A DNA stretch of 64,000 nucleotides from Verrucomicrobiales bacterium (GTDB lineage: Bacteria; Verrucomicrobiota; Verrucomicrobiia; Verrucomicrobiales; DEV007): positions 124,001 to 188,000 of the forward strand of contig PAAG01000031.1 in the NCBI GenBank assembly GCA_002698785.1. Reading direction: 5' to 3'. Each line of letters begins with the position of its first letter. The stretch's first letter is position 1. The notes beneath the pieces were generated by a model. It was not told the DNA's origin, did no database searches, and was given only the letters and a program-made list of their open reading frames with translations. Shown one piece after another: positions 50,286-57,744 of this stretch. The position numbers were made by a program, and so were the translations under genes.

Positions 50286-51041
50286 TCAGGTTTTCTGGCC
50301 GGTGGGGCGGACGAGGATGTCGGTGACTTCGGCGGTTTTGGGCATGGTGAGTTGGTGGAGGACGAGGTCGGCGATTTCTTGGGGCTGGAGTATTGGGTAG
50401 CCGATCTTGTCGTATTTTGATCCACCTGCTCCGGTGGCGAAGTATTCGTCGAGGAGTTCGGTGTCGACGAAGCCGGGTGAAATGCTGCTGACGCGGGTAA
50501 GGTTGTCGGCTTGTCGGAGTTCCTGCCGCAAGCCTTCGGTGATGGCTCGGACGGCGAATTTGGAAGGAGCGTAGAACCCTCCTTTTCCGGGGACTCGATG
50601 TCCTGACATGCTACTGATGTTCACGATGTGGCCTCCTTCCGAAGGAAAGTAGCGGAGGGCTTCTTTGGTCACGGCAGTGAGGGCGAGGACGTTGACGTCC
50701 ATCATGGTTTGCCAGTCGTCAAAATCTCCGTCCACGAGACTAGCCTGACGGGCGACTCCGGCAGCATTGATGAGTATGTCGAGGCCATCCAGTTTGTCGG
50801 ATGCTTTGGAAATGCAGTTGGGGATGGTCGAAAAGTCGCGGAGGTCGATGGGAAACACGGCAGCGGTTCCTCCGTTTCCTTCGATTTTTTCTGCGGTCTC
50901 GCGGAGGCGTTCCTCACGGCGTGCGAGGAGGGCTACGGAGGCTCCTTGAGCGGCCAGTTGCTCTGCGATCGCTCGGCCAATGCCGCTCGATGCACCGGTG
51001 ATGATGGCTTTGCGTCCGTGGAGGAGAAGGGAGTTTTCCAT
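50286..51041 (-). CDS. Short-chain dehydrogenase/reductase
   Basis: This 251-residue protein is a classical SDR. The NAD(P) site is T-G-A-S-S-G-I-G (residues about 15-22), then N-A-A-G near 92. The catalytic triad is visible: Ser in I-S-S-M-S near 143 and Y-A-P-S-K near 156-160. The basic A-R-R-E-E-R after the second strand suggests NADP(H) preference. Substrate unknown; it is divergent from the PQQ-propeller gene. Confidence 0.92.
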   Translation of the reverse strand: MENSLLLHGRKAIITGASSGIGRAIAEQLAAQGASVALLARREERLRETAEKIEGNGGTAAVFPIDLRDFSTIPNCISKASDKLDGLDILINAAGVARQASLVDGDFDDWQTMMDVNVLALTAVTKEALRYFPSEGGHIVNISSMSGHRVPGKGGFYAPSKFAVRAITEGLRQELRQADNLTRVSSISPGFVDTELLDEYFATGAGGSKYDKIGYPILQPQEIADLVLHQLTMPKTAEVTDILVRPTGQKT

Positions 51042-51120
51042 AGTGAATGAAGAGGATGATGGCTCGATTTTTCAACAAAAATACCCAACAACGGGTCCTA
51101 TCTGGCCTACAGTTGGGCTA

Positions 51121-52674
51121 ATGATGTATAGACCTCTTGCCAGAAATCTTTACCGAAATGATTTTTTTACGGGTAGGAATTCCCTTCGCTTCGCGAAGAA
51201 GGCGTTTTTTGAGGCTCGGGCTGAGGTTTCGCTTGGCTTCGTTCCTTGTTCGGTCGTTGGGGAAGCCCAACTCCCTCTCAAGCGCCTTGCCAAACGCAAC
51301 CTCAACCACGAGATTTCGGCAAATATTTCTGGCAAAAGGTCTAAACTGTTACGTCTGGCTGCTGCGGCAGTCGTTTTTGTTTTTGGATCGAGTCATCATG
51401 TGCAGGCGGAGGACTGGCCCACTTTTCTGGGGCCGACTATGGATCTGCATAGCGGTGAAACGGGATTGAATCTCGAATATGGTCCGGAGGGACCTCCCGT
51501 GTTGTGGGAAGTGGAGCGAGGTGGTGGGCATGCCGGACCCGTAGTGGTCGACGATCATGTTGTGTTCATTCACCAGGTGGATTCGAAGGAAGAGGTGAAA
51601 TGTGTGATGGCCGATACGGGGGAAGAGGTCTGGAGTCACTCGTATGACGTGGAGATGGCGAACGCAGCGGAGACTTACGGCATTTTCGATGCGCCACGTA
51701 GTAGTCCGGTGATCGATCCGGAGACGAAGCTCGTTTACACTCTCGGGAATGATGGAGACCTGATCTGCTTTGAGCTTTCGAGCGGCGAGATCGTCTGGGA
51801 AAAGAGTTTGCCAGCAGTCTTTGGACCTTCGCCATTTTTCTTCGGATACGGTTCTTGTCCGCTTGTTTTTGGAGAGAAACTGATCGTGCAGGTGGGATCC
51901 GATTCTGCGACAGTCGCGGCTCTCGATAAGAAAACGGGAGATACTATCTGGACAACTGATCATGACTGGAATGGCAGCTATGCTTCACCAGTCGTGATGC
52001 CGGTCAATGGGGTGGACTGTCTCGTTGTGTTTGCCGGAGGAAAGGTGAAGCCGACTCACGGTGGGGTGCTCTTGATCGATCCCACGGATGGGGCGGTGAA
52101 AGATTCTTTTCCCTGGCGCTCGGATAATTTCGCCAGCGTGAATGCAGCGACTCCGGTTCCCTGTGGACCGAATCGAGTTTTTATCACGGAGGATTACGGA
52201 AAGGGTGGAGTGATGCTCCAATACGATTCGGCGTTCCACGCTCGGATCCTGTGGACCTCTCCAGAGTTTGGATGCCAGTTCCAGACGCCGATTTATCACG
52301 AAGGAATCGTCTACGGATTTGGCGGAAACGGGGGGCTGATGCTCGCTTTTGATGCTGCGACAGGACGACACCTCTGGAATGAGGCGTTCTACCAGACCAC
52401 GATCCCGTGGAATGGACGGGACATCCCGATCAGCCTCGGGCACGCGCATCTGATCTATGTCGATGGCGGTTTTCTCTGTCTGAGTGAGAACGGCTCGCTG
52501 ATCCGAATGTTCCTCGATGCGGGCGGATTTCAGCTCGGTTCGATGGCCCGTTTGTTCTACACTCCAGAGACCTGGGCACCGCCCGTGGTGAGCAATGGGC
52601 GCCTGTTCATCAACAAGAACTACGATGGCACGAAGCTGATTTGTTACGACATCTCGGGAACAAAGTCGGAATAA
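51121..52674 (+). CDS. Secreted PQQ-like beta-propeller protein with repeat-encoded N-terminus
   Basis: This protein (517 residues from ATG 51121) has an eight-bladed PQQ-type propeller. Blades include A-L-D-K-K-T-G-D-T-I-W near the middle, A-F-D-A-A-T-G-R-H-L-W, C-F-E-L-S-S-G-E-I-V-W and N-A-A-T-P-V-P. Its signal peptide (L-L-R-L-A-A-A-A-V-V-F-V-F-G-S-S-H-H-V-Q-A) begins only at about residue 75. The first 70 residues are encoded by the inverted-repeat element at 51129-51343. No in-frame ATG lies nearer, so the original start may have been displaced; a CTG at 51346 is the only alternative next to the signal. Enzyme activity is not evident. Confidence 0.75.
   Translation: MMYRPLARNLYRNDFFTGRNSLRFAKKAFFEARAEVSLGFVPCSVVGEAQLPLKRLAKRNLNHEISANISGKRSKLLRLAAAAVVFVFGSSHHVQAEDWPTFLGPTMDLHSGETGLNLEYGPEGPPVLWEVERGGGHAGPVVVDDHVVFIHQVDSKEEVKCVMADTGEEVWSHSYDVEMANAAETYGIFDAPRSSPVIDPETKLVYTLGNDGDLICFELSSGEIVWEKSLPAVFGPSPFFFGYGSCPLVFGEKLIVQVGSDSATVAALDKKTGDTIWTTDHDWNGSYASPVVMPVNGVDCLVVFAGGKVKPTHGGVLLIDPTDGAVKDSFPWRSDNFASVNAATPVPCGPNRVFITEDYGKGGVMLQYDSAFHARILWTSPEFGCQFQTPIYHEGIVYGFGGNGGLMLAFDAATGRHLWNEAFYQTTIPWNGRDIPISLGHAHLIYVDGGFLCLSENGSLIRMFLDAGGFQLGSMARLFYTPETWAPPVVSNGRLFINKNYDGTKLICYDISGTKSE
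51129..51343. mobile_element. MITE-like element with 31 bp imperfect terminal inverted repeats
   Basis: The outer arms at 51129-51159 and 51313-51343 are inverted copies with 28 of 31 bases equal, both starting TAGACC and containing TTGCCAGAAAT and CCGAAAT. A second inverted pair lies inside (51223-51237 and 51289-51303, 13 of 15 bases equal). The whole 215 bp could fold into one long hairpin. There is no transposase gene within it, and target-site duplication is not clear. It lies between the ATG at 51121 and the signal peptide of the PQQ-propeller protein, and the reading frame runs through it. Confidence 0.6.
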
Positions 52675-54973: not shown

Positions 54974-55026
54974 GGTGTCTTATGGCCCCTTTTGCGCCAC
55001 GCGAAGCTATTGATTTTGCGGGCTTT

Positions 55027-57744
55027 ATGAGGATCGTTCGATTCGTGCGCGCTCTCCTCTTCATTTTTGCTTTCTCCACAGTTCTCTCCTCCGTTCGGGG
55101 AAATGAAATGGATGAGCTGTATGGTTTCTTCTCTGATTACTGCTTCAAGTGTCACGATGCGGACGTCCAGAAAGGCGATCTGCGGCTTGATGAGATGGTG
55201 GACGCCCCTGACTTCATTCGGGATCGAGAAGCCTGGCTTTCCATTCTGGAACAGATCGAGACTCGGGAGATGCCGCCGAAAGACCCTCTGCCCGACGAGA
55301 AGGCTTACGCGCACTGGGAAGAGGTTCTGCACGAAAAGGTCAACGATATTGACTGGGAGAAATACAAGCACCCGGGCCACGTAACGATCCCGCGCCTGAC
55401 ACGTGCTGAATACAACAACACGATCCGCGACCTGTTCGGGATGGATACGAATCCGGGGAGGAACTTTTCGCCAGATGCGGAGGGAAGAACGGGATTCACC
55501 AACGACCGGGATAATCTGTTCGTGACAGGGACGGACCTGGAAAAGTATTTCGAGGCAGCCGATCTCACGATCGAGGCGCTGCATTCTTTTTCAAAGGAGC
55601 CGATCTCGTGGTTTCGTGAGGCTGAGAAGATGTTTATGACGGAGAGTCTGACAAAGCCTTCGAAGTTCGATGAAGATAGTGTGGGGCACATTCTAACCAA
55701 TGGACAAAAGACTCTCTACGAGAGCGTGGAATTGCCAGCGTATGGATTCTACCGCGTGACGATACGAGGAAAGAGCACCACATACGGTCCGGCCAAGGCT
55801 CTGTTCCGAATGGATGACGTGTTAGTAGGAGAGTTGCGGGTAGATGGAAGAGAGCTCCAAGAAGATTCCGCTACTTTCTTTATGACTCCGGGCAGCCACC
55901 AGGTGACGCTGAATGTGAAGCTGCCGCCGCGAGAGTTGAAGAAAAAGGGGAAGGACAAAGAGAGCGACCCGCAATACACGGTGCTTCCAGAGAATGCGAA
56001 CGAGATTATCGGCAAGGAGTCGGTGAAGCGATCTCCTGAGTTGGCCATGCCGGAGGAGCCATCGGGCGAGTTGAGAAAGCTCGTTCTCGACTGGAACCGG
56101 AACGAGAAAGGCGTGCAGCGCGCATACGAGTGGCTGCGTTTGCTGGGAGAGAACGGGGATCCTAATCAACACGCGCGTTTCAAAGGCTATGTTGAGGAGC
56201 GGTTAGTGCCTTTGGAGGAGTTGAAGCCCAAGCTGGCAAAGGAAATGGGGATATCGGTCAAGCAGTTCGAGAAGCAATATGCTGAGGCAAATCAAGAGGC
56301 TTTGAAAGACCGAGAGAAACTCTTGGCGATTGAGAATCCCATTGTCGCCCAGAAACGAGGTTTCATCGGGGTGGACTGGCTCAAAGTGGAGGGGCCCGTT
56401 CTTCCCTCAGACCTCGATAATCCTGAGCTTCTGGATGAGGCGGTGAAAGCTGTTGTGAAAGGCAAGGGGTGGAAGAAATGGTTCCCTGATTTTGTTTCCC
56501 GTGCGTTCCGGCGCCCAGTCCCTGAGACGGAGATGGAGATGGAGAAATACCTGACCTTTTACCAAACGATTCGCGACGAGGGAGGGAGTCACGGGGAGGC
56601 TGCCGGTGCGGCTGTCTCTGCTGTTCTGGTTTCGCCGAGCTTTCTCTACCGGGCCGAGGAGCTTCCCGCAAAACCGGGTGATGAAGTGATGGAGCTGACG
56701 GATCATCAACTGGCTTCTCGGCTTTCTTACTTTCTCTGGCAAAGCACCCCCGATAAGGAACTTCGAAACCTGGCTGATGAGGGCAAACTATCGGAAGAGG
56801 GGGAGATCAATCGGCAAGTGAAGAGAATGCTGAACGATCCGAAGGCGGATGCGCTTTTCTCTACATTTCCGGGGCAGTGGCTGGGATACGAATCGCTCGG
56901 TATCAGTGTGATTCCGGATGGAACCCGTTTCCCTGAATTCGATGCGGAGTTGGCGGAGGCGATGAAGGCGGAAACGGCAATGTGGTTCCAGCGCATCCTG
57001 GCGACAGATAAGAGTCTGTTCGAATTACTGTCGTCGGATCATACGTATCTGAACTACCGTCTCGCGGCGCACTATGGGATTCCCGATGTTCGAGGTGAGG
57101 AATTGCAGCTTGTTTCGCTGAATGAGGAAGAGCAGCAGAGGCGTGGCGGCATTCTAGGGATGGGAAGTGTGCTGGCAGCGACGTCGACTCCAGTAAGAAC
57201 GAGTCCCGTGCTGCGTGGTGTTTTTGTGATGGAGCGAATTCTCGGTGATGAGCCGGGAGATCCGCCTGCGGATGCAGGGGAGTTGCCGGGAAATGCGGGG
57301 AGTCGCGGAAAGTCCTTGAAGGAGGAACTGGAAATTCATCGGGACCGGGCCGACTGCGCGGTGTGTCACGACAAGATCGACCCACTCGGCTTTGGCTTGG
57401 AAGGTTTCGATGTGATCGGGCGCTGGAGAGGGGACGAGGGGAAGCTTGATATGGAGGGCGTGCTTCCCGACGGTACTTCCTTTACGGGTGTGGCCGGTTT
57501 GCGCACCTATCTAACGGAGAATCGCAGGGAAGATTTTGTGAGGCATTTGGCAGAACGTCTGCTGAGTTATGGCCTGGGTCGTGAACTCCAATTTTACGAC
57601 GAGCCTGCCGTCCTGGAGATTTGTGAAAAGGTCGCTGCGAATGAATACGGTGGAACCTCTCTGGTTCAGGCAATCGTAGACAGTTATCCTTTTCGACACC
57701 AACACGCACAAACGGAGATCGAACTTCATCCCACGAAAGAATGA
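55027..57744 (+). CDS. DUF1592-type planctomycete cytochrome protein
   Basis: This 905-residue exported protein has a signal peptide, then a cytochrome c-like domain with C39-F-K-C-H43. The later order is typical of the DUF1587/DUF1592/DUF1588/DUF1585 architecture: R-L-T-R-A-E-Y-N-N-T-I-R-D-L near 120, S-R-L-S-Y-F-L-W near 565, R-T-S-P-V-L-R-G near 725, and a second haem-like motif C-A-V-C-H with K-I-D-P-L-G-F-G-L-E near 780. ATG 55027 is chosen for the signal peptide, though an ATG at 54982 is in frame. The DUF1552 gene overlaps its stop. Function is not biochemically established. Confidence 0.9.
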   Translation: MRIVRFVRALLFIFAFSTVLSSVRGNEMDELYGFFSDYCFKCHDADVQKGDLRLDEMVDAPDFIRDREAWLSILEQIETREMPPKDPLPDEKAYAHWEEVLHEKVNDIDWEKYKHPGHVTIPRLTRAEYNNTIRDLFGMDTNPGRNFSPDAEGRTGFTNDRDNLFVTGTDLEKYFEAADLTIEALHSFSKEPISWFREAEKMFMTESLTKPSKFDEDSVGHILTNGQKTLYESVELPAYGFYRVTIRGKSTTYGPAKALFRMDDVLVGELRVDGRELQEDSATFFMTPGSHQVTLNVKLPPRELKKKGKDKESDPQYTVLPENANEIIGKESVKRSPELAMPEEPSGELRKLVLDWNRNEKGVQRAYEWLRLLGENGDPNQHARFKGYVEERLVPLEELKPKLAKEMGISVKQFEKQYAEANQEALKDREKLLAIENPIVAQKRGFIGVDWLKVEGPVLPSDLDNPELLDEAVKAVVKGKGWKKWFPDFVSRAFRRPVPETEMEMEKYLTFYQTIRDEGGSHGEAAGAAVSAVLVSPSFLYRAEELPAKPGDEVMELTDHQLASRLSYFLWQSTPDKELRNLADEGKLSEEGEINRQVKRMLNDPKADALFSTFPGQWLGYESLGISVIPDGTRFPEFDAELAEAMKAETAMWFQRILATDKSLFELLSSDHTYLNYRLAAHYGIPDVRGEELQLVSLNEEEQQRRGGILGMGSVLAATSTPVRTSPVLRGVFVMERILGDEPGDPPADAGELPGNAGSRGKSLKEELEIHRDRADCAVCHDKIDPLGFGLEGFDVIGRWRGDEGKLDMEGVLPDGTSFTGVAGLRTYLTENRREDFVRHLAERLLSYGLGRELQFYDEPAVLEICEKVAANEYGGTSLVQAIVDSYPFRHQHAQTEIELHPTKE

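Follow-up and report, generated by a model that had tools for sequence, protein, structure and literature searches.

Several classes of short palindromic repeats have been described in prokaryotic genomes. Prokaryotic MITEs derived from insertion sequences (IS) are shorter than 500 bp, carry no genes, end in terminal inverted repeats, occur in many copies, of which young ones are flanked by a target duplication, and form a stable hairpin (PMC10969869). All these features are common to the element family described here. MITE families are defined by the ends that they share with a parent IS (PMC10969869). In the present family the ends vary, the interior is what the phyla have in common, and no parent IS was found. 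Two further systems are described in the same source. The Chunjie MITE of Geobacter uraniireducens (178-235 bp, 38 copies, conserved ends) resembles the family, by description alone, in size, copy number and conserved ends, and Rickettsia palindromic elements can insert in frame into genes, as here, but carry a conserved peptide (PMC10969869). Insertion sequences of the IS5 family (NF033580 type) share a YTA-like end context with the present elements and differ from them in carrying a transposase and no core.

ERIC, which has long been in use for typing, is a long imperfect palindrome like the present element and differs in its length of about 127 bp and in an extra inner stem. In seven copies from six genera, the words AAGGCG (six copies), GGAG-hairpin-GTGAC (six) and AACG (four), which were chosen post hoc, occur in the order seen in the family, and all seven copies fold better on the strand that corresponds to the core-sense strand.

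The element analysed here lies at the 5' end of a secreted PQQ-propeller gene. Coordinates refer to the window, which is the whole 64-kb stretch of DNA that was analysed, and the features of the locus are the following.

50286-51041, minus strand: divergent short-chain dehydrogenase (SDR) gene, used as synteny anchor (PF00106, E 1e-49)
51121-51126, plus strand: ATG ATG directly 5' of the element, aligned with the start codon of the orthologues (ATG in 13 of 14, GTG in one)
51127-51342, minus strand (core-sense, best-folding strand): whole element, 216 bp (match to covariance model R1, insertion limits from the orthologue set, fold z -9.6)
51129-51159, unstranded: left terminal arm (left end on the plus strand), complementary to 51313-51343 at 28 of 31 positions
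51184-51198, minus strand: putative small side hairpin around GCGAAGCG (from sequence reading; helix 6 of the subfamily-A fold, weak)
51220-51305, minus strand: conserved cross-phylum core hairpin (match to covariance model R2, 55.1 bits, E 9.7e-14 in the whole genome)
51313-51343, unstranded: right terminal arm (right end on the plus strand), complementary to 51129-51159 at 28 of 31 positions
51343-52674, plus strand: rest of the secreted PQQ-propeller gene from the signal peptide onwards (PF13360, E 2.4e-26; orthologues in 31 of 32 other same-genus genomes)

A first-pass annotation of this DNA had claimed outer arms matching at 28 of 31 positions and inner arms at 13 of 15. Both counts were confirmed; at the spacing of the outer arms no other place in the window reaches 24/31 pairing, and the inner arms start at 51223 and 51289. 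The inverted repeat is as claimed, except that the palindrome extends slightly further, from 51126 to 51346, and the R1 match covers 51127-51346. Folding of the element beats 200 of 200 shuffles on both strands, with z -6.3 on the plus and -9.6 on the minus strand.

The reading that we prefer, with a probability of roughly 0.8, is that of a non-autonomous, MITE-like transposon found across phyla, which is mobilised in trans, has inserted behind the start of the PQQ gene and is under selection for a single-strand fold. The element would be moved as DNA by a transposase that works in trans and is probably of the IS5 type, and one old copy would have landed directly behind the start codon of the PQQ gene. 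With its 216 bp and no stop in the frame concerned, this copy would leave the gene in frame, with 72 extra codons before the signal peptide. Selection on the single-strand fold would keep the stems paired while their sequence drifts, and the folded form would most likely matter to the element, with RNA favoured over single-stranded DNA.

Copies within the genome and across phyla

A DNA search of the own genome found eight other places besides the window copy. The covariance model R1, built from eight copies, gave 27 matches in this genome, of which eight are opposite-strand echoes, which leaves 19 places, 17 of them with full-length copies; an exact-pattern search added only one place, already known. 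By eye, the own-genome copies fall into four subfamilies, which share a centre and differ in their ends, and the window copy belongs to subfamily A. R1 matches were present in 16 of the 36 genomes of the relatives search, the own genome included, and one relative (G016) has 24. With as many as three mismatches allowed, the end word of the G016 copies is found there 99 times, and its reversed control not once (0). Many of these end-word matches lie less than about 150 bases from contig starts, so assemblies probably break at these repeats; copy numbers are likely underestimated. A scan of 387 genomes of the phylum, with stricter filters, found the core in 33, again including the own genome. The copies adjoin unrelated genes.

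A single pattern, written from the shared centre and run against species genomes, matched at least 116 stretches with titles spanning about nine phyla. Among the matches listed (80 titles, phyla assigned by us) are Acidobacteria, Verrucomicrobia, Myxococcota, Elusimicrobia and Bacteroidota, as well as Proteobacteria, Actinobacteria (Acidimicrobiia), Eremiobacterota and Nitrospinota. Most of these 80 are MAGs, and the four isolates, with the culturable Sphingomonas sp. Leaf32 and Sphingopyxis sp. H053 among them, are two Sphingomonas, a Sphingopyxis and an Aureimonas. Terminal arms of at least 14/16 occur in 78 of the 97 pattern matches that have enough flank (21 at edges were set aside), compared to 0 of 255 random placements. 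Carriage by phages was rejected, as the two pattern matches in viral contigs both lack terminal arms and nothing like the Sphingopyxis copy was found in plasmids or phages. Longer members of 248-273 bp occur in several phyla (L149, L151, L210, L217, L225, L226, L243, L252, L255 and L261), and some of them, where folded, have long extra hairpins after the core.

Rfam is without this family. No covariance model matched the window at E up to 1, and a scan of 20 loci at E up to 5 gave one match, outside the element. In a scan of eight loci at E up to 2, a MIR821 hairpin over one copy (L162) was sub-threshold (36 bits, gathering 249), and the other matches fall elsewhere than the element copies. 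A description of the family was not found in the literature searched, which covered parts of PMC10969869, PMC2267715 and PMC2680597 among others and left most subscription journals outside.

Target sites and the search for a transposase partner

The relative G255 carries a young burst of family copies, with 44 forward and 44 reverse occurrences of its end word compared to 2 and 1 for the control. The same TNA stands on both sides of 17 of 22 copies, one of which lacks the left flank, while shuffling gave a mean of 5.2 and a maximum of 15 in 10,000; these duplications argue that the element moves as DNA. In G016 the flanks are YTAR-like, and all four bases agree in 7 of 20 copies (shuffled mean 3.2, p 0.018). 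Within the IS5 family, the IS1031 and ISL2 groups typically duplicate TNA, and TNA and YTAR duplications together point to groups of this family. An IS5-type transposase probably acts in trans. Apart from its unusual conserved interior, the element has the structure and the mode of movement of a MITE: it is short and multi-copy, has terminal inverted repeats and no transposase gene, and a target-site duplication is found in the recently amplified relative. On reading its sequence, no matching three-base duplication flanks the window copy, which is therefore probably an old insertion.

C-TNA-G is the context of the young insertions (L284-L329). As TNA invariably reads as a stop codon in one of the two directions, insertion at a stop codon duplicates the stop. 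Insertions end an open frame of at least 100 codons in 4 of 21 copies, against 7 of 178 C-TNA-G control sites, a mild excess in few copies.

The families and end patterns searched gave no autonomous partner whose ends match those of the window subfamily or of the copies in G016 or G255. G016 has no element ends 0.8-3 kb apart. Three G255 contigs carry two complete short copies at this distance; the DNA between them, which codes for an ice-binding-like protein, a response regulator, and cytochrome c and SCO1-like proteins, was rejected as an autonomous partner, with a transposase in 0 of the 9 frames scanned. Likewise, no transposase was seen next to ten G255 ends without a near partner, at which one neighbouring frame each was scanned. 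At PF01609 loci of the own genome (G000) and G016, 0 of 6 carry an element end at 13/16 or better. Among four DUF4096 loci, one (L343) has element ends, on both sides, and end matches at 12/16 are scattered and look like chance.

This locus of G255 (L343:926-1815) holds an IS5-type IS of about 890 bp with two overlapping transposase frames. Its best match to NF033580 (E 3.2e-16) is below the model cut-off, in two frames, and its ends match those of subfamily C at 13/16 on both sides, a partial likeness between genomes.

Covariation of the core and asymmetry of the strands

For the core, 60 non-redundant sequences were aligned, namely 53 cross-phylum matches (some of them from Verrucomicrobia), two from the own genome and five from relatives. 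The own pair is from subfamily B, and subfamily A, to which the window copy belongs, was left out. Where the search pattern itself fixed a column, conservation follows from the design and is no evidence. In the free columns 90.4% of cells are paired compared to 65.7% after shuffling, and 274 cells are double changes compared to 96.0 in shuffled and 49-88 in slid alignments. Two of the five measures are hardly above the shuffles, these being the pairs with a double change (13 and 11.6) and the further pair types (47 and 44.1). Pair 27-62 occurs as CG 26, GC 16, AU 5 and UA 4 times, and the neighbouring positions are mostly GA on both strands; several of these are pattern columns, and they may form tandem sheared G·A pairs. 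For the eight copies of subfamily A, RNAalifold gave 68 pairs, 27 of them with a double change, against 11.4 after shuffling and 3-5 after sliding, in a structure derived from the very alignment tested; as in the core counts, related copies are not independent.

The covariance model R2, built from the 60-core alignment, gave 34 matches at E up to 1 in the own genome. With 55.1 bits and no input of subfamily A to the model, the window copy belongs to the cross-phylum core family as defined by R2, for which the best non-copy match in 240 kb of another genome scored 13.4 bits. ERIC, also absent from the model, reached 14.3 bits over a local hairpin. This is about background, and its membership by R2 is not established; ERIC may be a distant relative of the family.

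The two strands are not equivalent. On the core-sense strand of 80 cross-phylum elements, mismatches in the outer arms comprise 104 G·U and 26 A·C, with G·U the commoner in 54 elements and A·C in 10. The corresponding counts for 40 copies from the own genome and its relatives are 64 and 9 (G·U commoner in 28 copies, A·C in 3); related copies are not independent in these counts. The excess of G·U argues for selection on the fold of one strand, since a binding site read in the duplex would prefer neither mismatch. One strand's fold thus looks to be under selection, as RNA or as single-stranded DNA.

The second of these forms is a serious but less probable possibility. The strand would be extruded or exposed in replication and bound by the transposase or a host factor, and the core would then belong to the transposition machinery instead of acting as an RNA. 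The movement of the copies as DNA is in line with this, and so is their lack of a fixed orientation to neighbouring genes: of 56 loci, 22 have no overlapping ORF, and in these the two flanking ORFs, chosen mechanically, both run core-sense in 6 and both run in the opposite sense in 7. DNA, too, can form G-T and sheared G·A pairs. Against it, a bias in replication orientation was not demonstrable with eight copies of one genome (G357) and sampled GC skew.

It is improbable that the fold has no function and that template switching or gene conversion between the arms corrects the palindrome, which would yield double changes without selection. Such correction of quasi-palindromes is a known mutational process that gives compensatory changes, but it predicts neither that G·U should outnumber A·C on one strand nor a core that is kept while the ends diverge across phyla.

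Bacterial MITEs are usually viewed as deletion leftovers defined by their ends. Variable ends around a folded interior that is kept across many phyla suggest that this interior has some role, and with the covariation model it can be searched for and tested. More speculatively, and rather doubtfully at present, the core could be a module that functions as RNA or single-stranded DNA in a SINE-like bacterial element, which would spread through many phyla by means of IS5-type transposases and have ERIC as its enterobacterial branch. If so, ends, host and transposase would change while the folded core persists, and the core, not the terminal repeat, would be the identity of the element. The family might give ERIC an ancestry.

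The insertion site at the PQQ gene

Orthologues of the PQQ gene are present in 31 of 32 other same-genus genomes. The comparison of the insertion site rests on 14 of the 29 orthologous loci examined, in which the divergent SDR gene is kept; the stretch examined had no SDR gene in the other 15. The distance from the SDR gene to the first aligned PQQ residue (query residues 15-24) is 108-190 bp in these 14 loci, and that to PQQ residue 1 is 302 bp in the window. In the aligned DNA the orthologous start codon, which is GTG in L135, falls on the ATG ATG of the window, and none of the 14 loci carries the element there. Because the orthologous start aligns at ATG ATG with the element next to it, the alignment is read as an insertion directly behind the ancestral start codon, in frame and with 72 codons added.

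The MITE-like element at the gene start that the first-pass annotation had proposed is thus borne out by the two comparisons it named, further copies in the genome (19 places) and orthologues lacking the element (all 14 syntenic loci); the sequence is neither an ordinary conserved protein part nor one without copies and empty sites. That the PQQ gene has an ordinary conserved N-terminal region or a regulatory hairpin here, as the frame open across the element might suggest, is refuted by its absence from these 14 loci, with copies elsewhere adjoining unrelated genes, and retains virtually no probability.

As had been noted at first, the frame stays open across the element, running from ATG 51121 into the PQQ gene. 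Deletion of 51127-51342 gives ATG ATG AAA CTG TTA, which reads as a typical signal-peptide start. A 72-residue N-terminal extension is plausible as a prediction taken directly from the frame. The same nominal frame is stop-free in five of the eight subfamily-A copies, so the open frame is largely a property of the element and not special to this insertion. Subfamily A has no conserved peptide, its same-frame peptides differing widely. The suggested effect on the start codon holds in part, as the element separates start codon and signal peptide while the ancestral start codon is kept and not displaced.

The idea that the element supplied a promoter was not upheld, a simple consensus scan of 50980-51480, element included, finding no sigma-70-like promoter. 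Upstream of the PQQ start (51070-51126) lies a CCAAGAAAAA-like word, and directly before the ATG a TGGCCTAC-like word, both common to several same-genus orthologues; they may represent a promoter whose leader is very short or missing. The same genome holds a second PQQ paralogue, 38% identical (G000:C11:140-1405), and further downstream in the window (54982-57744) lies a gene for a protein with PSD and PSCyt domains (planctomycete-type cytochrome family, DUF1592/1588/1585/1587/1595).
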